NCBI RefSeq assembly: GCF_001718415.1
Contig: NZ_CP013378.1
Coordinates: 3,906,001 to 3,970,000 of the forward strand
Direction of reading: 5' to 3'
Source: Burkholderia pseudomultivorans
Lineage (GTDB): Bacteria; Pseudomonadota; Gammaproteobacteria; Burkholderiales; Burkholderiaceae
Length of the DNA: 64,000 nt
The notes below the pieces were generated by a model that searched no databases, had not been told where the DNA came from, and worked only from the letters and a program-made list of their open reading frames with translations. Shown here piece after piece: positions 13,658 to 37,493 of the stretch; the first letter of the stretch is position 1, and every line of letters begins with the position of its first letter. The position numbers and the translations under genes are program-made.

Positions 13658-15439
13658 TCAGGCCGCCTGCTGCTGGTACTGGATCCGGTGCAGATGCGCA
13701 TAGAGGCCGCCGTGGCGCAGCAGCTCGTCGTGGCTGCCCGACTCGACGATCTTGCCGGCCTCGAGCACGAGGATGCGATCCGCGCGCTCGATCGTCGACA
13801 GCCGGTGCGCGATCACGAGCGTCGTGCGCCCTTCCATCAGCCGTTCGAGCGCGGCCTGCACATGGCGCTCCGATTCCGAATCGAGCGCCGAGGTCGCCTC
13901 GTCGAGGATCAGGATCGGCGCGTCCTTGTAGATCGCGCGCGCGATCGCGAGCCGCTGGCGCTGACCGCCGGACAGCCGCATCCCGTTGCCGCCGACCAGC
14001 GTGTCGAGCCCGTCGGGCATCGCGGCCACCGCGTCGGCCAGGTTCGCGGCCTCGAGCGCCGCCTGCACGCGTGCGCGGTCGGGTGTCTGCCCGTATGCGA
14101 CGTTCGCGGCGATCGTGTCGTTGAACAGCACGACGTCCTGGCTCACCATCGCCATCTGGCTGCGCAGCGCGTGGATGTCGAAGTCCGCGACCGGCACGCC
14201 GTCGAGCAGGATCGCCCCGCCGGTCGGATCGAAGAAGCGCGGCAGCAGGTTTACGAGCGTCGTCTTGCCGCTGCCCGACGGGCCCGCGAGCGCGATCATC
14301 TCGCCCGGCGCGACCTTGAACGAGATGCGGTCGAGCGTCGGCCGCTCGGCCGCGCCGTAGTCGAACGACACGTCGCGGAACTCGATTTCGCCGCGCGCAT
14401 GCGGCAGCGGCCGGCCGCCGCCCTGCGGCTCGGCCGGCTCGTCGATCAGCCCGAAGATCAGTTCGGCGGCCGTCATCCCGCGCTGCAGCGGCTGGTTCAC
14501 GTCGATCAGGTGCTTCAGCGGCGAAATCACCAGCAGCATCGACGTGACGAACGCGACGAAGCCGCCGACCGTCGTCTGGTCGTTCGACGACTGCACGACC
14601 GCGATCGTGATCACCACTGCGAGCGCGATCGACGCGAGGAACTGCGTGAGCGGCTGCGCGAGGCCGCCGGAAATCGTCATGCGCATCGCGTAGCCGCGCA
14701 GGCGCTTGCTCATCGCGGTGAAGCGGTCGACCTCGTACGGCTCGCCGTTGTGCACCTTGACGACCTTGTAGCCGCCGACCGTCTCCTCGACGATGTACGA
14801 CAGCTCGTTGGTCAGCGTCTGGTGCTCGCGGTTCAGGCGCCGCAGGCGCCGGTTGATCTTGCTGACGAGCCAGCCGATGCCCGGCAGGATCACCGCGACG
14901 ATCAGCGTGAGGCGCCAGTTCAGGTAGAACAGGTAGCCGAGCAGGAACACCACCGTCAGCGAATCGCGCACCAGCGTGACCATCACGCCGGTCAGCACCG
15001 ACAGGATCTGGTTGACCTCGAACACGATCGCGTTGATCACCGTGCTGGCGGTCTCGCGCTGGAAGAACGACGCGCCGGTGTGGATCATCCGCTGGAACAT
15101 CTCGAGCCGAAGCTGCAGCAGGATGCGGTTCGATACGTAGTTGAGCAGGTAATTCGACGCGTACTGCGACACGCCGCGCACGAGCGCGAGGCCGATCACC
15201 GCGATCGGCACGTACCACTTCGCACGGTCGCTGCCGTGCGACCCGAAGCCATGGTCGAGCAGCGGCTTGAGCAGCGCGGGAATCCCGGCTTCCGTCGCCG
15301 CGACGACGCCCATCGTCATCACGGCGAGCACCACGATGCCGATCAGCGGCCGGATATACGGCCACAGGCGCTTGAGGACGGTGAGCGGCGACGTGCCGGT
15401 GCCGTCCATCGGTTTGCGAAGAGTGTTCTGGGTTTCCAA
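13658..15439 (-). CDS. msbA: Lipid A ABC flippase MsbA
   Basis: A 593-residue half-transporter that dimerises to flip lipid A-core across the inner membrane. Six membrane helices occupy residues ~25-320. The ATPase domain shows Walker [10 protein letters not shown] (~385), the [14 protein letters not shown] signature (~489) and Walker [13 protein letters not shown] (~508). Length fits MsbA (about 580-600). The start is a TTG at 15439 with AAGGAT at good spacing; no in-frame ATG gives a better N-terminus. A TATAAT box lies at 15529-15534 on this strand. It diverges from the LPS-core glycosyltransferase genes, which agrees with its role. Confidence 0.94.
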
Positions 15440-15625: not shown

Positions 15626-16378
15626 ATGGCTGAACCCACCCTCGGCGTCGCCCTCATCGCCCTCAACGCGTCCGCGCGGCTCGCGCAGTGCCTCGATGCG
15701 CTGACGTTCGCCGACGACATCGTCGTGATCGACGGCGGCAGCACCGACGACACCGTCGCGATCGCGCAGGCGCACGGCGCGCGCGTGATCGTCGAGCGCG
15801 ACTGGCCGGGCTTCGGCCCGCAGAAGAACCGCGCGCTCGACGCGCTCGACACCGACTGGATCCTGTCGCTCGACACCGACGAAGTCGTCAGCCCGGAACT
15901 CGCGCAGTCGATCCGCGACGCGATTCGCGCGCCGGCCGCGCAGGTGTACGCACTCGACCGGCTGTCGAGCTTCTGCGGCCAGTGGATCCACCACAGCGGC
16001 TGGTATCCGGACTGGGTGCCGCGCCTGTTCCGGCGCGGCGCCGCGCGCTTCTCGGACGATCTCGTGCACGAACGCCTCGTGTTCGACAGCGCCGCGCAGC
16101 GCCTGCCCGGCAAGCTGATGCATTATTCATATGAAGATTTCGAAACCGTGGTGCGCAAGCTCGACGCATATTCGACGGCCGGCGCGCGCCAGCGCCGCGC
16201 GGCCGGCCAGCGCGGCGGCTTCGGCAAGGCGCTCGCGCGCGGCGCGTGGGCGTTCGTGCGCACCTACCTGTTGCGGCGCGGCTTCCTCGACGGCCGCGCC
16301 GGCTTCATGATCGCGGTGTTCAACGCGGAGACGGTCTACTACCGCTTCCTGAAGCTCGGCCACGAAGCGGCCCGCTGA
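15626..16378 (+). CDS. GT2 glycosyltransferase, WaaE/KdtX-like LPS core type
   Basis: A 250-residue cytoplasmic-face glycosyltransferase of family 2. It opens LGVALIALNAS, has GGSTDDT (about 39-45) and the metal-binding LDTDE (about 80-84), and the C-terminal part RAWAFVRTYLLRRGFLDGRAGF matches WaaE/KdtX beta-1,4-glucosyltransferases that add glucose to the inner-core heptose. A TATACT box at 15584-15589 may be its promoter. It diverges from msbA and heads a rightward LPS-core set. Confidence 0.88.
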   Translation: MAEPTLGVALIALNASARLAQCLDALTFADDIVVIDGGSTDDTVAIAQAHGARVIVERDWPGFGPQKNRALDALDTDWILSLDTDEVVSPELAQSIRDAIRAPAAQVYALDRLSSFCGQWIHHSGWYPDWVPRLFRRGAARFSDDLVHERLVFDSAAQRLPGKLMHYSYEDFETVVRKLDAYSTAGARQRRAAGQRGGFGKALARGAWAFVRTYLLRRGFLDGRAGFMIAVFNAETVYYRFLKLGHEAAR

Positions 16379-16500
16379 TCTTCCCCCGAGGCCCGGCCGG
16401 CGCGCGCCGGCAGCAGCGTTACAATGCCGGCCTGCCCGTGCACCGCACGCCTGCGGAGCGGCCGCGCCGCCCGACACGACGAACACCCAATCCGACCGCC

Positions 16501-17343
16501 ATGTTCTCCATCATCATCCCGACCTGGAACAACCTGCCGTACCTCAGGCTCGTCGTCGACAGCCTGCGCCGCCATTCCGCGTACGACCACCAGATCATCG
16601 TGCACGTGAACGACGGCTCGGACGGCACGCTCGACTGGGTGCGCAGCGAAGGCATCGAGCACACGGCGTCGCCGGCCAACATCGGCATCTGTCATGCGGT
16701 GAACCTGGCCGCCGCGCGCGCGACGCGCGACTACGTCGTCTACATGAACGACGACATGTTCTGCTGCCCCGGCTGGGACACGGCGCTGGTGCGGCGCATC
16801 GAGCAGATGCCGACCGACCTGTTCATGCTGTCCGGCACGATGGTCGAGCCGGTCGATACGGGCAACCCGTGCGTCGTGGTCGCCGACTTCGGCCGCGACG
16901 CCGGACAGTTCGACGCAGCGGGCCTCGTCGCCGCCGCACCGCGCCTCGCACGCGCGGACTGGCTCGGCTCGACCTGGCCGCCGACGCTCGTGCATCGCGA
17001 CTGGTGGAACCGCATCGGCGGCTACAGCAGCGAGCTGTCGCCGGGGATGAGCAGCGACAACGACTTCTCGATGAAATGCTGGGACGCCGGCTGCCGGATC
17101 TTCATCGGCGTCGGCGACAGCCTGGTCTACCACTTCCAGCAGAAGAGCACGGGCAAGATCGTCAAGAACGACGGCCGCCGCCAGTTCCTCAACAAATGGG
17201 GCATGACGCAGGCGACGTTCGACCGCTATTACCTGCATCGCGGCGAGCCGGTCGGCACGCGTCTCGTGCTCGACACGCCGGTGGTCGAGGGTCGGCTGAA
17301 GCGCGCGCTGCTGCGTTCGCGGATCAAGCGCGCCCTTGGCTGA
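16501..17343 (+). CDS. GT2-family glycosyltransferase
   Basis: A 280-residue enzyme with the GT-A fold start FSIIIPTWNNLPYLRLVVDSL, nucleotide-binding VNDGSDGT and acceptor/metal segment YMNDDMFCCPGWD. The segment SPGMSSDNDFSMKCWDAGCRIF provides the ED/DND catalytic-base region of GT2 proteins. A TACAAT box near 16421 may drive it. Position between the WaaE-like gene and the O-antigen ligase gene places it in LPS core or O-antigen assembly; donor and acceptor are not readable. Confidence 0.87.
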   Translation: MFSIIIPTWNNLPYLRLVVDSLRRHSAYDHQIIVHVNDGSDGTLDWVRSEGIEHTASPANIGICHAVNLAAARATRDYVVYMNDDMFCCPGWDTALVRRIEQMPTDLFMLSGTMVEPVDTGNPCVVVADFGRDAGQFDAAGLVAAAPRLARADWLGSTWPPTLVHRDWWNRIGGYSSELSPGMSSDNDFSMKCWDAGCRIFIGVGDSLVYHFQQKSTGKIVKNDGRRQFLNKWGMTQATFDRYYLHRGEPVGTRLVLDTPVVEGRLKRALLRSRIKRALG

Positions 17344-17478
17344 TCCAGCCCCGAAAACGACACGGAAACGTACCTCGGTTCGCGTATACTGCGCGGTTCG
17401 TCCCGCCGCGTGCCGCCCGGGACGCGCGGCGCGCAGCACGGTGCCCGCATGCCGCATTCGTCCATTCGACAGGTTCCG

Positions 17479-18759
17479 ATGCTTTCGTTTTCCGCTTCCG
17501 CCACGCGGCGCCTGACCGCCGCCCGCGCCTTCGCCGTCATCGCACTCTGCATGGTGCCCGTCTCGACCGCGCTGACCAACGTGTTCTGCGGGCTGTTCGC
17601 GGCCGCGCTCGTGATCTCGCCCGAATTCTGGCGCGACCTGCGCACCTTCGTCACCGAACCCGCGTCGCTCGCGGCGCTGCTGATCCTGGCCGCGCTGACC
17701 GTCAGCGTCACCTATACGGTCGCGCCGCACGACAAGGCGTGGAACTGGGTCGCCAAGTACGACAAGCTGCTGCTGCTGCCCTTCGCCGCGCTCGCGTTCC
17801 GCCAGTCGAACTGGGCGCCGATCGTGCGGCGCTGCTGGTTCGGCACGCTGTGCGCGATCCTGCTGCTGTCGACGACCAACTATCTCGGGCTGACCGCGAT
17901 CGGGCCCGCCCATGCGACCGAACTGCCGCTGTCGCGCGCGTGGGTGTTCAAGAACCATATCGCGGCCGGCATGTTCGGCGCGCTGCTGTTCTACCAGGCG
18001 GCCGACCTTGCGCTGGCGGCCCGCACCGCGCTGTCGCGCGCAGCGTACGCCGGCGTCGCCGCGTGGGCGCTCGTCAACGTGTTCGTGATGCTGCAGGGGC
18101 GCACCGGCCAGGTCGTCGCGCTGCTGCTGATCCTCGTCGTCGCCGTGCGTTTCGTGCTGCTGCTGCGCAAGCAGTCGGCGCTGCGCGCGGGGCTCGCCGC
18201 GGGCGCGCTGGTGCTGGCCGGCGCGGCGCTGGTGGTGGCCGCCTGCACGGTGCACGGCGGCCGGCTCGTGAAGGTCGCGTCGGAAGTGCAGCAGTACCGT
18301 CAGAGCGACGCGGCGACGTCGACCGGGCTGCGCCTCGAGTGGTACAAGAAGGGACTCGAGCTGTACCGGATGCGACCGGCGATCGGCTATGGCGCGGGCG
18401 GCCTCGAGTTCGAGTTCCAGAAGCTCGCGGCCGGCAAGACGGCAGCCGAAGGCCAGCTCACGTCGAATCCGCATAACGAATACATGCTGATGGCCGTGCA
18501 GCTTGGCTCGCTCGGCGTGCTGCTGTTCATCAACCTGATCGTGCAGATCGCGCGCGGCAGCCGCACGCTCGATCCGCGCTCGCGGCAGCTGCTGCTCGGG
18601 TGGCTCGCGATCTTCACGGTCGGCAGCCTCGCGAATTCGCTGCTGCTCGATTTCGCCGAAGGGCACCTGCTGGTGCTGCTCGCGGGCATCCTGCTCGGCT
18701 GCGGCGGCCGCGACGAAGCGCTGCCGCGCGAAACCTCGGCGATCCGGCGCAGCGCGTAA
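17479..18759 (+). CDS. waaL: O-antigen ligase, WaaL type
   Basis: A 426-residue inner-membrane protein with about 11-12 helices and a periplasmic loop (~250-330). The WaaL motif H[NSQ]-x9-G-x2-[GTY] is exactly met by His332-Asn333 followed by nine residues, Gly, two residues and Gly. The Wzy_C-type RTGQV segment lies near residue 215. It joins undecaprenyl-linked O-antigen to lipid A-core on the periplasmic face. The start is uncertain: ATG 17479 has a weak AGG, ATG 17449 and 17410 are alternatives. It ends the rightward LPS set. Confidence 0.88.
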   Translation: MLSFSASATRRLTAARAFAVIALCMVPVSTALTNVFCGLFAAALVISPEFWRDLRTFVTEPASLAALLILAALTVSVTYTVAPHDKAWNWVAKYDKLLLLPFAALAFRQSNWAPIVRRCWFGTLCAILLLSTTNYLGLTAIGPAHATELPLSRAWVFKNHIAAGMFGALLFYQAADLALAARTALSRAAYAGVAAWALVNVFVMLQGRTGQVVALLLILVVAVRFVLLLRKQSALRAGLAAGALVLAGAALVVAACTVHGGRLVKVASEVQQYRQSDAATSTGLRLEWYKKGLELYRMRPAIGYGAGGLEFEFQKLAAGKTAAEGQLTSNPHNEYMLMAVQLGSLGVLLFINLIVQIARGSRTLDPRSRQLLLGWLAIFTVGSLANSLLLDFAEGHLLVLLAGILLGCGGRDEALPRETSAIRRSA

Positions 18760-18887: not shown

Positions 18888-20063
18888 TCAGTCCGATCCG
18901 CTGCGATGCAGTCGCGACGTGTCGACGACGGCTTCCGCGCCCGGCGGCTTGAGTCCGAGCATCTCGGCGGCCGCGGCCTTGACGCGCTGCGCGCCGAGAT
19001 TGACGAGGCAATCGCTGCGGCTGTCGACGTGACGCTCGCAGCCCTCGTGCCGGCACGGCACGCAGTCGCCCTCGCCCTGGATCAGCCACACGTTGCCGTG
19101 CCGCCCCGAGCCGCGCAGCGGCCACGGATTCTCGGTCGCCGGCCAGTGCTGCGGCCACGGCCCCCAGCGCACCGGATCGGACGGCCCAAACAGCGCGATC
19201 GTGTCGGTGCCCGTCGCCGCCGCGACGTGCGTCGCTCCCGTGTCGGGCCCGATGAACAGCCGCGCGCGCCGCACGAGTTCCGCGCTCTCGCCGAAGCTCA
19301 ACCGGCCGACCAGGTTCAGCACGTCGCCGCCGGCCTGCGCCGCGACCTGCTCGCCATACTCGCGCTCGCGATCGGCCGGACCGCCCGACAGCGCGACCGC
19401 GAAGCCGTGCCCGCGCAGCCAGTCGATCATCTCGACCCAGCCGTCGAGCCGCCATTGCTTGTAGCGGAACATCGGGTACGGATGCAGGACGACGAGCGGC
19501 CTGCCCTCGCGAAGCGCCGGCGACTCCGCGAGCCGCGCGTCGAAGCGCGCACGCCGCGCGGGATCGTCGCCGATGCCGGGCGCGACGACCTCGGATACCG
19601 GCTCGATGCCGATCACGGGCGCCAGCGCGAGCGTGCTGACGACCGTATGCGCGGACTCGTGGTGATTGATCGCGATCCCGTGCAGCATCATCCGCGTGAG
19701 CCAGGTGACGCGGTCCGGATCGACGAGGCCGACGCGCTTGCGGCCGGCGAACCAGCTGTAGAAGCGCGGCCGGTCGGAACTCAGCGCCGCGCACGCGAGG
19801 TCGTAGCGACGCCACATCGACAATGCATCGCGCAGGCGCTCGCGGAATCCCGCGCGCTGCGCGACGACGATCACGCGCCGCACGTCCGGGTTGTGCTCGA
19901 GCACGCCTTCGGTGCCGCGAAACACCAGCATGTCGATCTGCGCGTCGGGCCAGCGGGCCTTCAGCGAGCGCACGAGCGGCGTCGTCAGCAGCACGTCGCC
20001 GATACGGCGCGGCGCCGCGACGAGGATGGTTCTGGGCGGGCGGGCGGAGGAAAACAGGGCCAC
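18888..20063 (-). CDS. GT9 heptosyltransferase-family glycosyltransferase (downstream copy)
   Basis: A GT-B fold enzyme of family 9 (WaaC/WaaF/RfaQ type), 391 residues from the GTG at 20063. It shows the N-terminal TILVAAPRRIGDVLLTTPLVRSLKARWP and the C-terminal donor-site segment FIGPDTGATHVAAATGTDTIALFGPSDPVRWGPW. Family members transfer ADP-heptose to LPS inner core. The start is uncertain: the frame stays open upstream through the octanucleotide array, there is no good ribosome site, and no ATG close by; the GTG best matches the family N-terminus. A Cys-rich C-terminal stretch (VPCRHEGCERH) is seen in some members. Confidence 0.85.
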   Translation of the reverse strand: MALFSSARPPRTILVAAPRRIGDVLLTTPLVRSLKARWPDAQIDMLVFRGTEGVLEHNPDVRRVIVVAQRAGFRERLRDALSMWRRYDLACAALSSDRPRFYSWFAGRKRVGLVDPDRVTWLTRMMLHGIAINHHESAHTVVSTLALAPVIGIEPVSEVVAPGIGDDPARRARFDARLAESPALREGRPLVVLHPYPMFRYKQWRLDGWVEMIDWLRGHGFAVALSGGPADREREYGEQVAAQAGGDVLNLVGRLSFGESAELVRRARLFIGPDTGATHVAAATGTDTIALFGPSDPVRWGPWPQHWPATENPWPLRGSGRHGNVWLIQGEGDCVPCRHEGCERHVDSRSDCLVNLGAQRVKAAAAEMLGLKPPGAEAVVDTSRLHRSGSD

Positions 20064-20153
20064 GGCAGTCGGTCCGTCTAGCTGGCTGAACAAGGCTGGC
20101 AATGTACAGGATTTTGCAGCAGCCGGCGCGGCACGGCGAACGCGGCGAACGCG

Positions 20154-20385
20154 GTGGCGCGGTGGCGCGGTGGCGCGGGGGCGCGGGGGCGCGGTGGCGC
20201 GGTGGCGCGGTGGCGCAGTGGCGCGGTGGCGCAGTGGCGCAGTGGCGCAGTGGCGCAGTGGCGCAGTGGCGCAGTGGCGCAGTGGCGCAGTGGCGCAGTG
20301 GCGCAGTGGCGCAGTGGCGCAGTGGCGCAGTGGCGCAGTGGCGCAGTGGCGCAGTGGCGCAGTGGCGCAGTGGCGCAGTGGCGCA
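20154..20385. repeat. Tandem octanucleotide array, 29 copies of GTGGCGCR
   Basis: 232 bases made of 29 head-to-tail 8-base units with no indels. Units 1-3, 6, 7 and 9 are GTGGCGCG, units 4-5 are GGGGCGCG, and unit 8 plus units 10-29 are GTGGCGCA, the last 20 being identical (20226-20385). On the gene strand the unit reads TGCGCCAC. It lies between two leftward GT9 genes, 90 bases upstream of the GTG of the downstream one. The unit has no stop codon in any frame, so reading frames pass through it. Identical copies at one end and variant copies at the other are typical of a slippage-prone VNTR. Confidence 0.97.
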
Positions 20386-20430
20386 GCGGATCGTACGCCG
20401 GTATGCGGCGGCGCGGTCGCGATGCCGGGC

Positions 20431-20479: not shown

Positions 20480-21553
20480 CTACACGGCGAGCGCCTCGAT
20501 CGCCACCGTCTCCGTCGCGTCGGTCTCCGGCACGGCGCATTCCACGGACTGCGCCAGCAGATCGCGCACCGCACGCTCGACCGCGTCGACGCCGATCGCA
20601 TCGACGCTCGCGCCCGCCCGCAGGATCGCGTGCGGCACGCCGAGCGGATGCCAGCGCAGATACTTTTCCGGCCGGTCCTCGAACAGTGCGGCGACGGGCA
20701 CGCGCAGCGCCGACGCGAGATGCACGGGTGCGCTGTCCGCCGACACGATCGCGTCGAGCAGGCTGGCGAGCGCCATCAACTCGCCGACCGACGACGGCAC
20801 GACATGCCGCGCTTCCACGCCCTGCCATGCGTCGCACGCGCCCCCGTCCGCCGACGCGAGCGCGGGATCGCGAAACACGATCACGTCGACGAGCGGCGCG
20901 AGCCGCCGGCCGAGCTCGCGCCACCGGTCGGCGGGCCAGCGCCGTTCGGCGGCCTTGTTCGACACGAACAGGCCGACGCGCGGCTTCGTGCGCGGCCCGA
21001 GCCGATCGCGCCACGCCTGTTGCAGCGTGCGGTCGGGATGCACCGTCAGCACGAGCTCGTCGATCCCGACACCGCCGAGCTCGGGAACGAGCCGGAACCC
21101 CGACAGCGCCTCGTGCCAGATCGGCCGCGTCGTGACATGGTCGGGCTTGCGATCGTCGAATTCGGTATCGGCATCGTGCCAGCGGCAGTCCTTTGCGCCG
21201 AGCTGCCGCGCGAACTGCACGCTGCTGCGGTGCATGCCGCCGTTCGGCACGACCACGAGGTCGAACCGCAGGCGACGCAGGCGCCGGACCAGCCGCATGC
21301 GGTCGAGGAAGGCGCGCAGCCGGCCCGGCCGATCGTTGCGCTCGCACTGACGGCTGTACACGTACGTGTGAACCGCATCCACGTCCGGGTTGCCGGCCAG
21401 CACGGCCGCGTTGTAGCGGTTCGCGACCACATGCAGTTCCGAACCGGGCCAGCGCCGCTTCAACGCGCCGAGCAATGCCGTCGTGCACAGCATGTCGCCC
21501 AGAAAATCAATCCGGATCACGAGGATCCGTCCCGCCGAGTTCCCGTAGGCCAT
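20480..21553 (-). CDS. GT9 heptosyltransferase-family glycosyltransferase (upstream copy)
   Basis: A 357-residue GT-B enzyme of family 9. The ATG at 21553 gives the family start AGRILVIRIDFLGDMLCTTALLGALKRRWP. The C-terminal donor region is DAIVSADSAPVHLASALRVPVAALFEDRPEKYLRWHP. It is clearly related in domain plan to the GT9 gene downstream but divergent in sequence, so the two probably add different residues to the LPS core. The ribosome site is weak. It is separated from dnaE by that gene's terminator, so it has its own promoter. Confidence 0.87.
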   Translation of the reverse strand: MAYGNSAGRILVIRIDFLGDMLCTTALLGALKRRWPGSELHVVANRYNAAVLAGNPDVDAVHTYVYSRQCERNDRPGRLRAFLDRMRLVRRLRRLRFDLVVVPNGGMHRSSVQFARQLGAKDCRWHDADTEFDDRKPDHVTTRPIWHEALSGFRLVPELGGVGIDELVLTVHPDRTLQQAWRDRLGPRTKPRVGLFVSNKAAERRWPADRWRELGRRLAPLVDVIVFRDPALASADGGACDAWQGVEARHVVPSSVGELMALASLLDAIVSADSAPVHLASALRVPVAALFEDRPEKYLRWHPLGVPHAILRAGASVDAIGVDAVERAVRDLLAQSVECAVPETDATETVAIEALAV

Positions 21554-21808: not shown

Positions 21809-24800
21809 TCAGTAGGTGATTTCGACCGTGCTGCCGTCGAAGGCTGCGCGCAGCTCCGCGAGCAGCGTGTCGCTCGGCTTCACGCGCCACGCATCGCCAA
21901 GCCGCATCTCGCCCTGCGCGCGCGCATTGCTGTAGTGGATCTGGACCGCGAGCCCGTTGGGCAGCGGCGGCTGCGGACGCCGGCCGCCGTCGCGTCCGCC
22001 GCCGCGCGGCGCGGGCGCCTCGACCGCGTTCGCCGCCGCCGGATCGTCCTTCGACACATGCGGCTCGAGCACGCGGCGCAATGCCGTCGCATCGGCATTG
22101 CCGTTCATCGTCAGCCGCACGGCCTGCGCGTAGCGGCTGCGCGCGCGTTCGAGGTCCATCACCGTATCGGCCGTGAAGCGAATGCCGCCGGTAAACGCAT
22201 CGTTGCGCGCCTGCCCTTGTACGATCAGCAGTTCGTCTTCCTTGAACAGCGCCTTGTTCGCCTCGAACTGCTCGTTGAAGATCGTGATTTCGCACTGGCC
22301 GGTGCCGTCGTCGAGCAGCGCGATCAGCATCTTGCCGCGCTGGGTCATCTGCGTGCGCAGCGACGCGATGATGCCGGCGACGAGCTTGTCGCGCCCTTCC
22401 TTCAGCTCGCCGACCTTCTGCCGCACGAAGCGGCGCACCTCGTCGCGATACGCGTCGAACAGGTGGCCCGACAGGTAGAAGCCGAGCGCACCCTTTTCTT
22501 CCTGCAGGCGCCGCTTGTCGTCCCACGCGGGCTCGTCGACGAGCGCATGCGCGTGCGGCGACTCGGCGCCCATGTCGAACAGGCCGGCCTGCAATGCGTT
22601 TGCCTCGGCCTGGTCGGCCGCCTCCATCGCGAGCGGCACCGACGCGAGCAGCTGCGCGCGGTTCGTATTCAGCGAGTCGAATGCGCCGGCGCGGATCAGC
22701 GCCTCGATGGTGCGGCGGTTCACGATGCGGCGGTCGATGCGCTCGCAGAAATCGAACAGATCCGTGAACGGCTTTTCCTCGCGGGCGCGCAGGATTTCCT
22801 CGATCGCGTTCTGGCCGCTGCCCTTCACCGCGCCGAGCCCGTAGCGGATCGTGCGCGAGCGCTTGCCGTCGGCTTCGGCGACCGGCTCGAACCGGTAGTG
22901 CGACTGGTTGATGTCGGGCGGCAGCACGACGAGGTTGTTCACGATGCAGTCGTCGAACAGGATCTTCACCTTGTCGGTGTCGTCCATCGCGAGCGTCATG
23001 TTGGCCGCCATGAATTCGGCCGGATGGTGCGCCTTCAGCCACGCGGTGTAATACGCGAGCAGCGCGTACGCGGCCGCGTGCGACTTGTTGAAGCCGTAGC
23101 CCGCGAACTTCTCCATCAGGTCGAAGATCTCGTCCGACTTCTCGCGCGACAGCCCGTTCTTCGCCGCACCCTCGGCGAAGATCTCGCGGTGCTTGACCAT
23201 CTCCTCGGGCTTTTTCTTGCCCATCGCACGACGCAGCAAGTCGGCGCCGCCGAGCGAGTAGCCGCCGATGATCTGCGCCATCTGCATCACCTGCTCCTGA
23301 TAGACCATGATGCCGTAGGTCTCTTTCAGGACGGGTTCGACGCGCGGATCCGGATACTCGACCTTCTCGCGGCCGTGCTTGCGTGCGCAGAAGCTCGGGA
23401 TCAGGTCCATCGGGCCCGGACGGTACAACGACACGAGCGCGATGATGTCCTCGAAGCGGTCGGGCTGCGCGTCCTTCAGCATGCCCTGCATGCCGCGGCT
23501 TTCCAGCTGGAACACGGCGACCGTGTTGGCCTTCTTGAGGATCTGGAACGACGCCGGATCGTCGAGCGGCACCTGCGACAGCGACCAGTCGGCCTTCGAC
23601 GGATCGAGACGGCGGATGTAGCGCTCGGCCCAGTCGAGGATCGTCAGCGTGGTCAGGCCCAGAAAGTCGAACTTCACGAGGCCGACGGCTTCGACGTCGT
23701 CCTTGTCGTACTGGCTCACGACGCCGCCGTCGTCGCCCTGCGTGTACAGCGGGCAGAAATCGGTCAGCTTGCCGGGCGCGATCAGCACGCCGCCCGCGTG
23801 CATCCCGACGTTGCGCGTCAGGCCCTCGACGCGCTGCGCGAGGTCGAGCAGCTGGTGCACCTCGTCCTCGTTGTCGTAGCGCTCCTGCAGCTGCGGCTCT
23901 TCCTTCATCGCGTCGGCAATCGTCACGTGCTTGCCGGGCTTGAACGGGATCAGCTTCGCGACGCCGTCGGTGAACATGTAGCCGAGGTCGAGCACGCGGC
24001 CGATGTCGCGCACGGCCGCCTTCGCGGCCATCGTGCCGAACGTGGCGATCTGCGACACCGCGTCCGCGCCGTACTTCTCCTTCACGTACTGGATCACGCG
24101 GTCGCGGCCGTGCTGGCAGAAGTCGATGTCGAAGTCGGGCATCGACACGCGTTCCGGGTTCAGGAAGCGCTCGAACAGCAGGTTGTAGCGCAGCGGGTCG
24201 AGGTCGGTAATGCCGAGCGCGTACGCGACCAGCGAACCGGCGCCCGAGCCGCGGCCCGGCCCGACCGGCACGCCGTTGTTCTTCGCCCAGTTGATGAAGT
24301 CCGCGACGATCAGGAAGTAGCCCGGGAAGCCCATCTTCGTGATGGTCCCGCATTCGAACTCGAGCCGCTTGTAGTACGTGTCGCGCTGCGCGTCGCGTTC
24401 GGCTTCGTCCGGATACAGCTGCGCGAGGCGCTTTTCGAGCCCCTCCTTCGACAGCTGGACCAGGTAGTCGTCGAGCGACATGCCGTCGGGCGTCGGGAAC
24501 AGCGGCAGCTTCGGCTTGCCGAGCTCGAGCTTCAGGTTGCAGCGCTTGGCGATCTCGACGGTGTTCGCGATCGCCGACGGCAGATCGGCGAACAGCGCGA
24601 CCATCTCGTCCTGCGTGCGGAAATACTGGTCGGTCGTGAAGCGCTTCTGGCGCCGCGGGTTCGCGAGGATGTCGCCTTCGGAGATGCACACGCGCGCCTC
24701 GTGCGCGGTGAAATCGTCGTCGGTCATGAACTGCGTCGGATGCGTCGCGACGACCGGCAGCTTCAGCGACGCGGCGAGCGTCGCGGCCTGCTGGATGTAC

Positions 24801-25342
24801 GCTTCCGCGCCGGGCTGCCCGTAGCGCTGCAGCTCGATGTAGAAGCCGCCCGGAAACACCTTCGCCCAGCGCTGCGCATGGCGGCGCGCGGCTTCCTCGT
24901 TGCCGGCCGCGAGCGCGAGGCCGATATCGCCCTGCTGCGCACCCGACAGCGCGAGCAGGCCCTCCGACAGTTCGCCGTCGAGCCAGCCCGGGTCGAGCTC
25001 CGCGCGGCCGCGATACTGGTTCGTGAGCCATGCCTTCGACAGCAGCTCGCACAGATTCAGGTAGCCGCGCTTGTCCTTCACGAGCAGCAGCAGACGCGAC
25101 GGCTTGTCGCGATCGTCCGGATTGGTGATCCAGACGTCGCAGCCGGCGATCGGCTTGATGCCCTTGCCGCGGGCTTCCTGGTAGAAACGGACGAGGCCGA
25201 ATGCGTTGCCGAGATCGGTCAGGGCGAGCGCGCCCTGGCCGTCCGCGGCCGCCGCCTTGACGATGTCGTCGAGACGCACGATGCCGTCGGCAATCGAGAA
25301 TTCGGAGTGAACGCGAAGATGGACGAAGCGAGGATCTGACAT
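21809..25342 (-). CDS. dnaE: DNA polymerase III alpha subunit
   Basis: The replicative polymerase, 1177 residues. An N-terminal PHP domain (HLRVHSEFSIADG at 8-20), palm with catalytic PDFDID (402-407), the finger/thumb, helix-hairpin-helix and OB fold (GIIASLRTQMTQRGKMLIALLDDGTG) are in the usual order; length fits DnaE1. The ATG at 25342 is the conserved MSDPRFVHLRVHSEFS start; the frame extends further but without support. No ribosome site is seen. A TACAAT box at 25350-25355 lies only 7 bases from the ATG. The gene stands alone and diverges from trhO. Confidence 0.97.
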   Translation of the reverse strand: MSDPRFVHLRVHSEFSIADGIVRLDDIVKAAAADGQGALALTDLGNAFGLVRFYQEARGKGIKPIAGCDVWITNPDDRDKPSRLLLLVKDKRGYLNLCELLSKAWLTNQYRGRAELDPGWLDGELSEGLLALSGAQQGDIGLALAAGNEEAARRHAQRWAKVFPGGFYIELQRYGQPGAEAYIQQAATLAASLKLPVVATHPTQFMTDDDFTAHEARVCISEGDILANPRRQKRFTTDQYFRTQDEMVALFADLPSAIANTVEIAKRCNLKLELGKPKLPLFPTPDGMSLDDYLVQLSKEGLEKRLAQLYPDEAERDAQRDTYYKRLEFECGTITKMGFPGYFLIVADFINWAKNNGVPVGPGRGSGAGSLVAYALGITDLDPLRYNLLFERFLNPERVSMPDFDIDFCQHGRDRVIQYVKEKYGADAVSQIATFGTMAAKAAVRDIGRVLDLGYMFTDGVAKLIPFKPGKHVTIADAMKEEPQLQERYDNEDEVHQLLDLAQRVEGLTRNVGMHAGGVLIAPGKLTDFCPLYTQGDDGGVVSQYDKDDVEAVGLVKFDFLGLTTLTILDWAERYIRRLDPSKADWSLSQVPLDDPASFQILKKANTVAVFQLESRGMQGMLKDAQPDRFEDIIALVSLYRPGPMDLIPSFCARKHGREKVEYPDPRVEPVLKETYGIMVYQEQVMQMAQIIGGYSLGGADLLRRAMGKKKPEEMVKHREIFAEGAAKNGLSREKSDEIFDLMEKFAGYGFNKSHAAAYALLAYYTAWLKAHHPAEFMAANMTLAMDDTDKVKILFDDCIVNNLVVLPPDINQSHYRFEPVAEADGKRSRTIRYGLGAVKGSGQNAIEEILRAREEKPFTDLFDFCERIDRRIVNRRTIEALIRAGAFDSLNTNRAQLLASVPLAMEAADQAEANALQAGLFDMGAESPHAHALVDEPAWDDKRRLQEEKGALGFYLSGHLFDAYRDEVRRFVRQKVGELKEGRDKLVAGIIASLRTQMTQRGKMLIALLDDGTGQCEITIFNEQFEANKALFKEDELLIVQGQARNDAFTGGIRFTADTVMDLERARSRYAQAVRLTMNGNADATALRRVLEPHVSKDDPAAANAVEAPAPRGGGRDGGRRPQPPLPNGLAVQIHYSNARAQGEMRLGDAWRVKPSDTLLAELRAAFDGSTVEITY

Positions 25343-32120: not shown

Positions 32121-35100
32121 ATGCACACGGTTGTTTTCGGCTGGTTCGGCGTCTCCGCCGTCTGGTTCCTCCTTCTCTTCTGGCGTCTCGTGCAGGCCAT
32201 GCTGCCCGGCGGCGGCGGGCTCGCCGGCCGCGGGTCGATCCGTCTGTGGCTCGGCTTCGCGGCCGTCTTCGTCGCGAGCTGCACGCTGACGAGTGCACTC
32301 TCCGGCCCCGACACGAACGCGCTCGGTCATGCGTTCGCGGCCGGCTTCGCGCACGTGCTCGGCCCGGTCGGCACGCCGGTCGCGATGGTCGTGCTGCTGT
32401 TCGCGGGGCTGCCCTGGCTGACCGGCATCGGCTGGCGGCAGTTCGCCGCGTGGGTCGACACGTCGTTCGGCGTCAAGCTGTCGCGCGACCGCGGCGACGA
32501 CGATGCGCATGGCATCGCCGACCTGCCGCGCAGCGCGCTGCATCGCGACGACGACATCGTGCAGCCGACCACCGCGCACACCGTCAACTCGATGGCGCCG
32601 CGACAGAACGGCCGCTATGCGCGCCCGACGCTGTGGAAGCCCGATCCGCAGGCACGGCCGCAGCCGCGCCGCAAGACCGCGCCGCGTCCGCCGGTCGAGC
32701 CCGTCGCGCCTTCCGGCTGGCTGAAGCCGTCGGCACCGGCCGGTCGCACGCCGCCACCGCCGTCCGTCCCCGTCACGACCGGCGCGATGCCGCCGCCGAC
32801 GACCGGCAGCACCGCCAGCCTCGCGCGCGCCGCAGCGAACGCGCAGGTGCCGCGCCCCGATCCGGCCCCGCTGCCGGCCGGCTTCGAGCCGGTACGGCCT
32901 CGGCCGACCGCCGCGCGGCCGGTTGCCGCCGCTGCGCTCAACAAACAGCCGGCTGCGCCCCGCGCGGCCGTCACGCCCCGCCCCGCTCCCGCGACGCAGC
33001 CGCGCCCGCCGGTGCGGCCGGTCGGCGGAATCGTGCCGGCCGGCACGGCTTCTGATCCGTCGCGCCGTCGCACGGTGACGCCACCGCCGCCTAAGCGCGC
33101 GCCGCTCTACGCGTGGGCGGAAAAGCCGGCGACGCCGATCTCGCCGGCGCCAAGCGTCCATGAAACGCTCCGCTCGATCGAGGCGAGCACCGCGCAATGG
33201 GCCGCGATGGCCGGCGCGCAGCAGCCCGGCGACGCCGCCGGCGCGGCGGCGGCCGGCGTGGCCGGGATCGCTGCCGCAGGGAACGGCATGGCCGCGCCGT
33301 TTTCCGCCACCGGATCGGACGCGAGCGTTTCCGGCATTTCCGACCATGCCGCGCATCGTGGCGACCAAACGGTCGTGCGCGAGGCGGCGCCGACCGCGCA
33401 CGACGACGATGCACCGATCGTGCTGGATGCGTTCGCGCCGGTTGAACCGCACGGCCTCGCTTCGACGATCGGCGCAGGTACGGCGACGACGTTCGGGATG
33501 GCCGCGCAAGATGCACAGTCGGGCAGCGCCGTCGGTCCTCACGCATTTGCGTCGCACGCGGACAACGAGATGCACAACAGCGTTGCGGCGCCTGCCGTGC
33601 CGACGTTCGACGTCGCGCCGGCGTCCGCGCCCGATGCGGCGATCGCGCTTGCGCCGTGGGAAGACTTTGCCGGTCAGTCGGTCGCCGCGTTCGGCGGGTC
33701 GCGTGATGGTTCGTCTGATGCGCTGTCGCCGGCCGCGGCCGACGCTCGGCCCGCGACTGCGGCCGGGTCGCGACCCTCCGTCGAAATCGCGCAGCCGGAA
33801 GCTGACGCGAATCGACATGACGGTATCGCGCCGGCATCGGCTTCGTCGGTCGACACCGTCGAGCGTGCGGCGGAAACCGATAGCACGGCATCGGAAGACG
33901 GGAACGGGAAGTCGAATTCTCTCGGCGCGGAATCGAACGCGGGCGGCGTGCAGCCTGTCGCCGCACCGGCCGGGCCGGTCTCGCCCCTTCCCGCTTCGTC
34001 GATCGGTGAGACATCGGCGAAGGCGGTGCGCGGCGCCGCTTCGATCGCAGCAGTGGCGGTAGCAGCCGATCCCGCGGCGGAAACCGTCGAGCCTGCGGCA
34101 GCAGGAAGCGTCGTGACGAAGCCCGTCGCCGATGCCGGATCGTCGATGCAGGACAGCGTGCAGTCGGCTGCGAAGCCGGCGCCCGCTTCGGGCGTGACCG
34201 CGGTCGCATCGACGCCCAAATCCTCGGTGGCTCAACCATTCTCGGCCGCGACGATCGCCGCCACGCCGTCGCCTGCCGACGCCGCATCCGGTGGTTCGAC
34301 GCCTCTGGCTTCCGCAGCGAACGGCGCGCCCGTTGCTACGACCGGGTCTGCTTCCGGCCCCGCGACGCCGGCATCGACTGCGAGCACCGCCCCCATTGCG
34401 GCGATGCTGTCGCCCGGTGACTCGACAGCGTCTACTTCCGGCTCTGCGGCACTGACACCGGCCGCGAACAGCGCGCCCAGTGCTGCGACGCCTTCGTCCG
34501 GCGGCTCGACGGTGTCCGCTCCCGGCTCCGCAGCACCTGCACCGGCCGCGAACACCATATCCATTACGGCGACGTCCGATGAGGCGGCAACGTCCTCGAC
34601 CGGTTCTGCTGCGCCAGTACCGGCATCCGCCGCGTCGATAGCCGCGACGACCTCCCCTCTCGGCGCGGCGACGGCTGCATCCGGTTCGTTCGCGCAGGCG
34701 AGCGCATCGGCATCGAGCGCTGAATCGTCGCCGATCGGCGTCGCGCGTACGGCTGCCGATACGATCGCGCAGCCGTCGGCTTCCGCCGCGCAGACCGTTC
34801 GCGTGCCATCGTCCGGTGGCGCCGCGGGTTCGGCACCGGCTTCGGTCCAGCCGACAGCAGCTTCGTCGACGCTCGCCGGCACGTCCGCGGCCATTGGCGT
34901 CGCGCGCGCCGCGTCCGGCTTGGTTTCGCAATCGCCGGCGCCTGCGGCCTTCGCTCCCGCGTCAGCGAACGCGCTGCCCGGTTCGACAGCCCTGCAGCCT
35001 TCGGCAGCGCCGATCGCCGATACCGCGACGCACACACCGACTGCTGCGCCGACCGCGGCAAGCGGCACGACCATGTCCACGCATCAGCCGTCGGCCGTCG

Positions 35101-37493
35101 CGCCGACACGCTCCGCGACGATCGCCCCTCCGACGGCGCAATCGAGCGGCGCGGTATCCGCTCATCCCGCAGCGGCGACGCCGGCACCAGCCGTTCCGTC
35201 GAATCGCGTGGCCGACATCCCCGCTACCGCTACGCCGTCCGCCGCGACCGAAACGACGCGAACCGCAATCGATGCACCTGTCGTCGCGGCTCCCGCCGCG
35301 ATCGCTCCGATGACGACGGGAACGTCGGCTTCCGTTCACTCGGCGACCAGCTCACCCGTGACGACGACTGGCACGACCGCCGGCGCTCTCGCGCCGGCTG
35401 CCGCGCCCGTGTCGCCGGCAGCCCCCACGGCGACGCTTTCCGGCAGCCCTGCCGTGCCGACCGTACCCACCGGCACACCGGTCACGCCCGCGAGCGTCGA
35501 GACGACCGCTCCGGCTGCCGTACCGGCCGCATCGACAACGCCTGCCGCAGCAACCGCGCTCTCCGCGGCGCCCGCCACGTCGTTCACGACAGCGGCCAGC
35601 CCCGCCCTCGCGCCTGCAAACGGCACCGCGTCGAACACCGCCGCGGCAGCGACCTACGGATCCACGCCAGGCGCCCCGTCAGCCGCATCCAGCGGATCCG
35701 TGCCGCATGGCGTACCGGCCCCGTCCATCGCATCGCCAGCGCCACAGTCACCGCTCTCCCCCGCCACGGCCGTTGCGCCCGCATTCGTCGTGGCCGCGCC
35801 GGCTTCGACCGTTCCCGGCACCAACCCGCCCGCGCCGCCGGTCGTCGCACCGGTCGCCGCTGCCGCATCCGTCGACTCGACCGCGCCGGCAACGGCCGCC
35901 CCGAGCGCCGACACCGCAGCCGCCGCGCCATTGCCCGCTGCGCCCACCGCACCCGACACCCCGGCCCGCCAGCCGCGCCCGAATGCATTCGAATTCCACG
36001 CGCCCGCGTCGTTCGACGTCGAACTGCCGACGCTCGACCTGCTCGAGCCTGCGTCGGACGACATCGAGACGATCAGCGACGAACATCTCGCGCAGACCGG
36101 CCAGGTGATCGAGCAGCGCCTGCAGGAATTCAAGGTGCCGGTGACGGTCGTCGGCGCGTCGGCCGGCCCCGTGATCACGCGCTTCGAGATCGAGCCCGCG
36201 CTCGGCGTGCGCGGCAGCCAGATCGTCGGGCTGATGAAGGACCTGTCGCGCGGCCTCGGCCTCACGTCGATCCGCGTCGTCGAGACGATTCCCGGCAAGA
36301 CCTGCATGGGCCTCGAACTGCCGAACGCGAAACGCCAGATGATCCGGCTGTCGGAGATCCTCGAGTCGCGCCAGTACCAGCATTCGGCGTCGCAGCTGAC
36401 GATCGCGATGGGCAAGGACATCACCGGTCATCCGGTCGTCACCGATCTCGCGAAGGCGCCGCACATGCTCGTGGCCGGCACCACCGGTTCGGGCAAGTCG
36501 GTCGCGATCAACGCGATGATCCTGTCGCTGCTGTACAAGGCGACGCCCGACGACGTGCGCCTCATCATGATCGACCCGAAGATGCTGGAGCTGTCGGTCT
36601 ACGAGGGGATTCCGCACCTGCTCGCGCCGGTCGTCACCGACATGAAGCTCGCCGCGAATGCGCTGAACTGGTGCGTCGGCGAGATGGAGAAGCGCTACCG
36701 GCTGATGTCGGCCGTCGGCGTGCGCAACCTCGCGGGCTTCAACCAGAAGATCCGCGACGCCGAGGCGAAGGAAAAGAAGATCGGCAACCCGTTCTCGCTG
36801 ACGCCGGACGATCCGGAACCGCTGTCGACGCTGCCGCTGATCGTCGTCGTGATCGACGAGCTGGCCGACCTGATGATGGTCGCAGGCAAGAAGATCGAGG
36901 AGCTGATCGCCCGCCTCGCGCAGAAGGCGCGCGCGGCCGGCATCCACCTGATCCTAGCCACGCAGCGTCCGTCGGTCGACGTGATCACCGGCCTGATCAA
37001 GGCGAACATCCCGACGCGCGTCGCGTTCCAGGTGTCGTCGAAGATCGATTCGCGCACGATTCTCGACCAGATGGGCGCCGAATCGCTGCTCGGCCAGGGC
37101 GACATGCTGTTCCTGCCGCCCGGCACCGGCTATCCGCAGCGCGTGCACGGCGCGTTCGTCGCCGACGAGGAAGTGCACCGGATCGTCGAATACCTGAAGC
37201 AGTTCGGCGAGCCGCAGTACGAGGAAGGCATTCTCGACGGCCCCGCGGCCGACGGCGCGACGCAGGACCTGTTCGGCGACGCGCCCGACGCGGAAGCCGA
37301 TCCGCTGTACGACGAAGCCGTCGCCTTCGTCGTGCGCACGCGGCGTGCGTCGATCTCGTCGGTGCAGCGGCAGCTGCGCATCGGCTACAACCGCGCCGCG
37401 CGTCTCGTCGAGCAGATGGAAGCGGCCGGGCTGGTATCGTCGATGGGCATCAACGGCAGTCGCGAGGTGCTCGTGCCGGCCGCGGCGGACTGA
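32121..37493 (+). CDS. ftsK: DNA translocase FtsK with very long linker
   Basis: A 1790-residue divisome-linked DNA pump for chromosome segregation. The N-terminus has about three membrane helices (5-27, 41-61, 75-105). A Pro/Ala/Ser/Thr-rich linker spans roughly 130-1290. The motor domains follow: alpha from ~1290, RecA-like beta with Walker A GTTGSGKS (1453-1460) and Walker B VVIDE (Asp1579-Glu1580), and the C-terminal winged-helix gamma domain (~1726-1790, [24 protein letters not shown]), which reads KOPS sites and contacts XerD. E. coli FtsK is 1329 residues with four helices, so the linker here is about 500 residues longer. The ATG lacks a clear ribosome site. The usual trxB/lolA neighbours are absent. 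Confidence 0.94.

Follow-up and report, generated by a model that had tools for sequence, protein, structure and literature searches.

An octanucleotide array next to a predicted glycosyltransferase promoter in a Burkholderia LPS-core locus is probably a young, lineage-restricted variable-number tandem repeat

Introduction

Does a long, pure run of octanucleotides between two glycosyltransferase genes of an LPS-core locus control the gene that follows it, or does it change in length by replication slippage with little effect on its neighbor? At the LPS contingency loci of Haemophilus and Neisseria, the repeats lie inside coding frames. The array described here resembles those loci in that a slippage-prone repeat is found near LPS glycosyltransferase genes, but it differs in that the repeat is intergenic and lies outside the conserved reading frame. 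The array falls within a 64-kb stretch of DNA (hereafter the window; G000:C2:3906001–3970000) from a genome of 7.96 Mb in 3 contigs. It is not named in the titles and abstract openings listed by literature searches on the point, which cover few subscription journals and are therefore weak evidence of absence. Here, we describe the structure of the array, its occurrence in other Burkholderia genomes, and its position relative to a conserved block that is predicted to contain the promoter of the downstream gene.

Results

The array occupies positions 20154–20385 of the window (232 nt) and consists of 29 whole octamer units with zero indels. Read in the sense of the downstream gene (minus strand), the unit is TGCGCCAC. 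From the end far from that gene to the end near it, the order is 20 TGCGCCAC, 1 CGCGCCAC, 1 TGCGCCAC, 2 CGCGCCAC, 2 CGCGCCCC, and 3 CGCGCCAC, such that the 20 identical units form the far end and eight of the nine remaining, gene-near units are CGCGCCAC or CGCGCCCC. Tandem Repeats Finder calls the array at 20150–20386, with a period of 8, 29.6 copies, 97% matches, and 0% indels. An initial reading made from the sequence alone had reported 29 octamers without indels, 20 of them identical and consecutive, and both the program and our unit-by-unit reading bear this out. The longest perfect period-8 run in the array is 20.1 copies, compared with at most 2.625 when the 64-kb window was simulated 40 times with a first-order Markov model. 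It is also the longest perfect run of any period from 4 to 12 among 121 stretches of the genome (2.464 of 7.957 Mb, or 31%, window included). The purity and length of the 29-unit array are far beyond chance.

Other octamer arrays are present in the same genome. The second-longest perfect run in the sampled 31% is at L171:11517–11818 (G000:C2:191517–191818), where CTGGCGAA is present in 37.9 copies overall and 14.9 perfect copies. The octamer TGCTGCCT is repeated 9.4 times at L207:13006–13080 (G000:C2:4633006–4633080), and a further octamer array, of 6.1 copies, is found in L223. That long octamer arrays occur beside genes with no evident surface role argues against inferring function from position alone. 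The CTGGCGAA array sits between an open reading frame (ORF) for a BadF-type kinase and one for a Cof-type phosphatase, and the TGCTGCCT array has an EAL/GGDEF ORF on one side and a LacI-type regulator ORF on the other; these names were read from the ORFs only.

The genes that flank the array in the window belong to glycosyltransferase family 9. Along the minus strand, dnaE, encoding DNA polymerase III alpha (21809–25339; NF004226, 1599.8 bits against a cut-off of 1002), is followed by GT9-A (20480–21553; PF01075, E = 1.1e-13), the array, and GT9-B (18888–20063; PF01075, E = 1.4e-29), which begins with GTG at 20063. An O-antigen-ligase-type gene on the plus strand (17410–18759; PF04932, E = 3e-16) is convergent with GT9-B and is preceded by two GT2 glycosyltransferase genes of the LPS-core locus, also on the plus strand (16486–17343 and 15626–16378, both PF00535), the second of which is the likely wabO counterpart by gene order. 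Beyond these lies msbA, which encodes the lipid A exporter (13658–15439, minus strand; TIGR02203, 803.6 bits against a cut-off of 602). Elsewhere in the window, an 84-bp repeat of 2.3 copies (34380–34574) lies inside a plus-strand ORF (32121–37493) that is FtsK-like, as read from the ORF only.

With PF01075 scores of 103.6 bits for GT9-B and 51.5 bits for GT9-A, against a gathering score of 22, both proteins are members of family 9. Both fall below the NCBIfam cut-offs for heptosyltransferases I, II, and III (best scores 151.4 and 74 bits, respectively, against 170.2 for III). The earlier description of the two genes as "heptosyltransferase-family" therefore stands as a family name, through PF01075, but not as an assignment to a named heptosyltransferase.

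B. dolosa LMG 18943 (L059) shares the gene order dnaE, GT9-A, GT9-B, ligase, GT2. In B. dolosa AU0158, normal LPS depends on a three-gene locus consisting of wabO, BDAG_01006 (glycosyltransferase), and BDAG_01005 (O-antigen ligase), as does sensitivity to contact-dependent inhibition, such that loss of its genes changes the LPS and confers resistance (PMC9487645). Judged by gene order alone, this locus likely corresponds to the GT2-GT2-ligase run of the window; counterparts of GT9-A and GT9-B are not named in the accessible text of that report on the B. dolosa locus.

How widespread is the array? A pattern of four units, with up to two mismatches allowed, matched 2 of 65 Burkholderia genomes and was not found in the other 63. 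All 26 placements were at the GT9-A/GT9-B locus, 20 of them in the window's genome and 6 in that of a sister species, B. pseudomultivorans LMG 26883 (G075). Among the genomes searched, the array is therefore lineage restricted, occurring in two sister genomes and at one locus. As a control, the array pattern read backwards matched two other genomes of the genus, 6 and 3 times, indicating that comparable arrays built from other units exist in Burkholderia. Two arrays at unrelated loci in other Burkholderia may be mentioned here: a near-variant octamer, GCCACCGC, is present in 12.9 copies at L100:1474–1579 (genome G063), and a 9-bp GCCCACCGC array of 15.4 copies lies inside open frames at L083:1499–1637 (genome G034).

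The sister species (L039) has an orthologous array of 14 units: 8 TGCGCCAC, 1 CGCGCCAC, 1 CTCGCACC, and 4 CGCGCACC. The two arrays, which in this one genome pair differ in length as 29 to 14 units, precede GT9-B sequences that are 98–99% identical; among the matches listed, GT9-B of LMG 26883 is 99% identical to that of the window, and the other named loci are at most 95% identical. On this basis, the genome of the window is taken to be that of a Burkholderia close to B. pseudomultivorans. GT9-A, at 92% identity between the two genomes, is more divergent than its neighbors GT9-B (98%) and the dnaE end (99%). In both arrays the variant units adjoin the gene, and in the sister species the pure run is of 8 units. 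Comparison of the unit lists indicates that both the length and the composition of the array have changed between the two genomes. Because the collections searched hold one genome per species, the length comparison is between species, and the difference between 29 and 14 units at an orthologous place supports slippage at that level.

These data also support the initial proposal that the array is subject to slippage, since a pure run of 20 units is now joined by 8 pure units within the 14-unit orthologous array. The features expected of a slippage-prone variable-number tandem repeat (VNTR) are present: pure, short, head-to-tail units beyond chance and a copy number that differs at the orthologous place, the latter in one genome pair. 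The array likely arose, and likely changes in length, by replication slippage. We infer that units are still gained and lost within species, and the polarity of the units suggests that growth has occurred mainly at the promoter-distal end.

To place the array relative to other elements upstream of GT9-B, we compared spacers at this locus across the genus. Only loci with GT9-B identity of at least 88% were used, and copies of one genome were merged if the 100 nt adjoining the gene were identical; the 80 loci kept gave 43 distinct sequences, of which 41 were full spacers and two were cut by contig ends. This set overlaps the 65-genome set in 37 genomes, with 28 lying outside the spacer survey. 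The distance from GT9-B to the next upstream gene ranges from 76 nt (L070) to 554 nt in the full spacers, and in 5 of the 41 that gene is dnaE, which replaces GT9-A. Perfect runs of at least 4 copies with a period of at least 5 were present in four full spacers: those of the window, L039, L031, and L033. The repeats in L031 (CGCCACC, 5.6 copies) and L033 (AGCCCCA, 4.7 copies) are heptamers unrelated to the window's octamer, and an array of the window's type is absent from 39 of the 41.

Alignment of the 43 distinct spacers, using up to 130 nt before the start codon, revealed a sharp boundary. Of the 28 positions from −54 to −27, 27 are common to at least 95% of the sequences, whereas agreement at every position between −130 and −82 stays below 90%. 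Outside the block, the spacer is hypervariable. The conserved block, at 20078–20120 on the minus strand (−57 to −15), lies between the array and the gene, as the edge of the array at 20154 is 90 nt before the GT9-B start codon. In B. cenocepacia J2315, a study of transcription start sites described a −10 consensus of TAnAAT and a weak, TTGCC-like −35 element (PMC4603805). The window contains a putative −10 element, CAAAAT, at 20111–20116 on the minus strand that matches four of the five specified bases of this consensus, and a putative weak −35 element, TTCGCC, at 20135–20140 on the same strand, 18 nt from the −10; a second TTCGCC is at 20144. A scan with the generic sigma-70 consensus found no site in the predicted promoter region.

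The putative −10 element can be followed in other loci. A close relative (L029) has TAAAAT at the position of the window's CAAAAT. Among 14 more distant loci, TAAAAT is present in four (L038, L064, L065, and L067; 67–71% identity), 40–61 nt before the matched coding sequence; three (L035, L036, and L062, the last two being identical in sequence) lack the A-rich motif but retain GTACATTG, and seven match neither. We also considered whether the block could be a genome-wide regulon motif, which was ruled out: a search of the whole genome with a 19-nt piece of the block, allowing up to three mismatches, returned its own site and one other, with three mismatches. We consider it quite likely that the conserved block is the promoter and leader of GT9-B, in which case some 50 nt would separate the edge of the array from the predicted transcription start downstream of it. 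As the predicted promoter is between the array and the start codon, a change in array length would leave the −35/−10 spacing, the length of the leader, and the reading frame unchanged.

Discussion

The reading that we favor, with a probability of about 0.64, is that the array is a lineage-restricted VNTR made by slippage that likely has little effect on GT9-B, as the array lies outside the interval from the predicted promoter to the start of the gene. The array would arise, and would gain and lose octamers, by replication slippage, and would serve as a spacer of variable length beyond the predicted GT9-B promoter rather than as a gene switch. Expression of GT9-B would be little changed, with the spacing of the core promoter and leader fixed and no conserved upstream site displaced. 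Array length could nonetheless influence what becomes of read-through RNA, or alter the geometry farther upstream than about −50, as numbered from the predicted start. A regulatory effect is therefore possible, given that the array is the longest run sampled, abuts a predicted promoter in an LPS-core locus, and has a gene-near end in which C exceeds G. We compared five readings in all, and the weights that we attach to them are judgements and not computed values.

Two of the alternatives tie the number of units to the reading frame of GT9-B or to its distance from an upstream element. If the array were translated as an N-terminal extension of the protein, gain or loss of octamers would switch the reading frame on and off. 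In the window's genome the GT9-B frame is indeed open for 872 amino acids through the array, and 37 of the 43 spacers lack an in-frame stop, as high G+C would allow. However, the other six spacers (two of the 43 being cut by contig ends) do contain an in-frame stop, and the conserved block lies 31–39 nt from the start codon, at a distance that is out of frame with that of the window in 12 of 42 sequences (L010, with a variant motif, is not counted). Moreover, a GTG (39) or TTG (2) start is found at the same place in all 41 full spacers. A protein search with the array-encoded peptide, in which the 7992 candidates sharing most words were scored, returned six matches and no extended GT9-B; none of the six is a GT9 protein by domain or name, and the five inspected are unrelated proteins with similar repeat-encoded peptide stretches. 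Conservation of frame and start, together with the protein search, led us to reject a coding extension through the array, and we give this reading hardly any weight. The sequence-only reading had instead envisioned that the array separates the GT9 start from a promoter or RNA structure farther upstream, such that gain or loss of units would change the spacing between them. Co-transcription is possible, and a search of the stretch from GT9-A to the array yielded no intrinsic terminator. Yet the conserved, likely promoter is on the other side of the array, toward the start codon, and no conserved upstream element was seen. An RNA element was also sought: Rfam gave four matches, all below threshold and none in the spacer, including the array and the conserved block, so this candidate was rejected. 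The repeat can form hairpins with GCGC stems, but folding is unexceptional relative to shuffled sequences (z = −1.55 for the spacer RNA and −1.38 for the array DNA), and we therefore claim no special structure. The proposal that array length changes the spacing to GT9-B is thus not supported, and we regard it as very unlikely.

The remaining alternatives place the effect in read-through RNA or in distal promoter geometry. One is that RNA reading through from dnaE and GT9-A enters the untranslated, C-rich array and undergoes Rho-dependent termination, with array length setting how much read-through reaches GT9-B. That no intrinsic terminator was detected would suit this scheme, as would base composition: C makes up 54% and G 25% of the array's sense strand (C minus G, 0.293), no 78-nt segments of the minus strand in the entire 64 kb have a greater excess of C over G than those at the gene-near end of the array, and the four most C-biased of 40 spacers are those of L034, the window, L039, and L031, three of which carry the longer arrays. 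(L070 was left out of this count, as 6 nt remain once the 70 nt adjoining the gene are removed.) Nevertheless, C exceeds G in only 21 of these 40 spacers, which rules out a genus-wide Rho site as a conserved feature; the repeat-bearing L033 spacer has no C bias, and Rho would likely have to compete with GCGC hairpins, into which the repeat RNA can fold. We consider Rho-linked control distinctly unlikely. Another possibility is a contingency locus of the nadA kind, in which changes in array length would move distal elements, or alter DNA shape, with respect to RNA polymerase, resulting in graded GT9-B expression and heterogeneity of the LPS core. At nadA of Neisseria meningitidis, a tetranucleotide tract, of 5 to 12 repeats in named strains, is flanked by NadR operators and an IHF site, and this tract modulates expression from a distal position upstream of the promoter (PMC2791445). 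The predicted layout of our locus matches that of nadA in that, if the conserved block is the promoter, the repeat is upstream of and not within the core promoter of a surface-related gene. Variation in such a gene could matter, as GT9-B is part of an LPS-core locus, loss of LPS genes in B. dolosa leads to resistance to contact-dependent inhibition (PMC9487645), and B. cenocepacia core mutants are not infected by phage JG068 (PMC3765740). However, our repeat is an octamer and not a tetranucleotide, and nadA acts through the paired NadR operators and IHF site that surround its tract, of which the flanks of our array give no sign: 43 of 200 shuffles reached the 8 nt of the longest direct motif shared between the flanks and 189 of 200 the 6 nt of the longest inverted one, such that neither is longer than expected, and the best match to the IHF consensus there has three mismatches. 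In addition, neither the array nor the upstream spacer is conserved across the genus (41–43 spacers; 65 genomes). Nor, if the promoter prediction holds, would the repeat alter the frame, the −10/−35 spacing, or the leader length in the manner of other contingency loci, although such a position is not required of the nadA type. Overall, we judge a nadA-like mechanism unlikely. Since the flanks lack nadA-type signs, the genus lacks a C bias, and the repeat can form GCGC hairpins, a neutral or near-neutral VNTR is the reading that leads.

How does such a VNTR compare with those already known in the genus? The two chromosomes of B. pseudomallei K96243 carry 285 and 324 arrays, most of them with 6- to 9-bp units and predominantly intergenic. 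The same work gives copy numbers of 4 to 21, also mentions regions of more than 20 copies, and finds 36.3% of arrays duplicated elsewhere in the genome (PMC1853098). Individual VNTR loci of that species mutated at rates of 5.3e-5 to 1.7e-4 (U'Ren et al., 2007; PMC1853098). Our array resembles these in being an intergenic array of short units, in the same genus, whose length differs between related genomes, but its exact unit is found at one locus only and the species group is different. On the published description of the B. pseudomallei arrays, it is another case of a known kind of Burkholderia VNTR, in a different lineage of the genus.

We conclude that the array is probably a young, lineage-restricted VNTR whose effect is small. 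Even a neutral array would likely offer a high-resolution length marker for the lineage, and it would exemplify a microsatellite-like locus of recent origin. Placing the likely promoter on the gene side of the array alters the choice of worthwhile experiments. A more speculative view, which we hold to be doubtful, is that the array is a recently born rheostat of the LPS core, in which the length of a C-rich tract sets GT9-B transcription through distal geometry or through Rho-blocked read-through. O-antigen switching in B. dolosa has been attributed to de novo mutations (PMC12287342). Should the array tune GT9-B, LPS-core variation in the Burkholderia cepacia group would have a source driven by a repeat, and, were the rheostat view correct, sister Burkholderia species would vary by slippage a surface sugar that is relevant to phage infection and contact-dependent inhibition.
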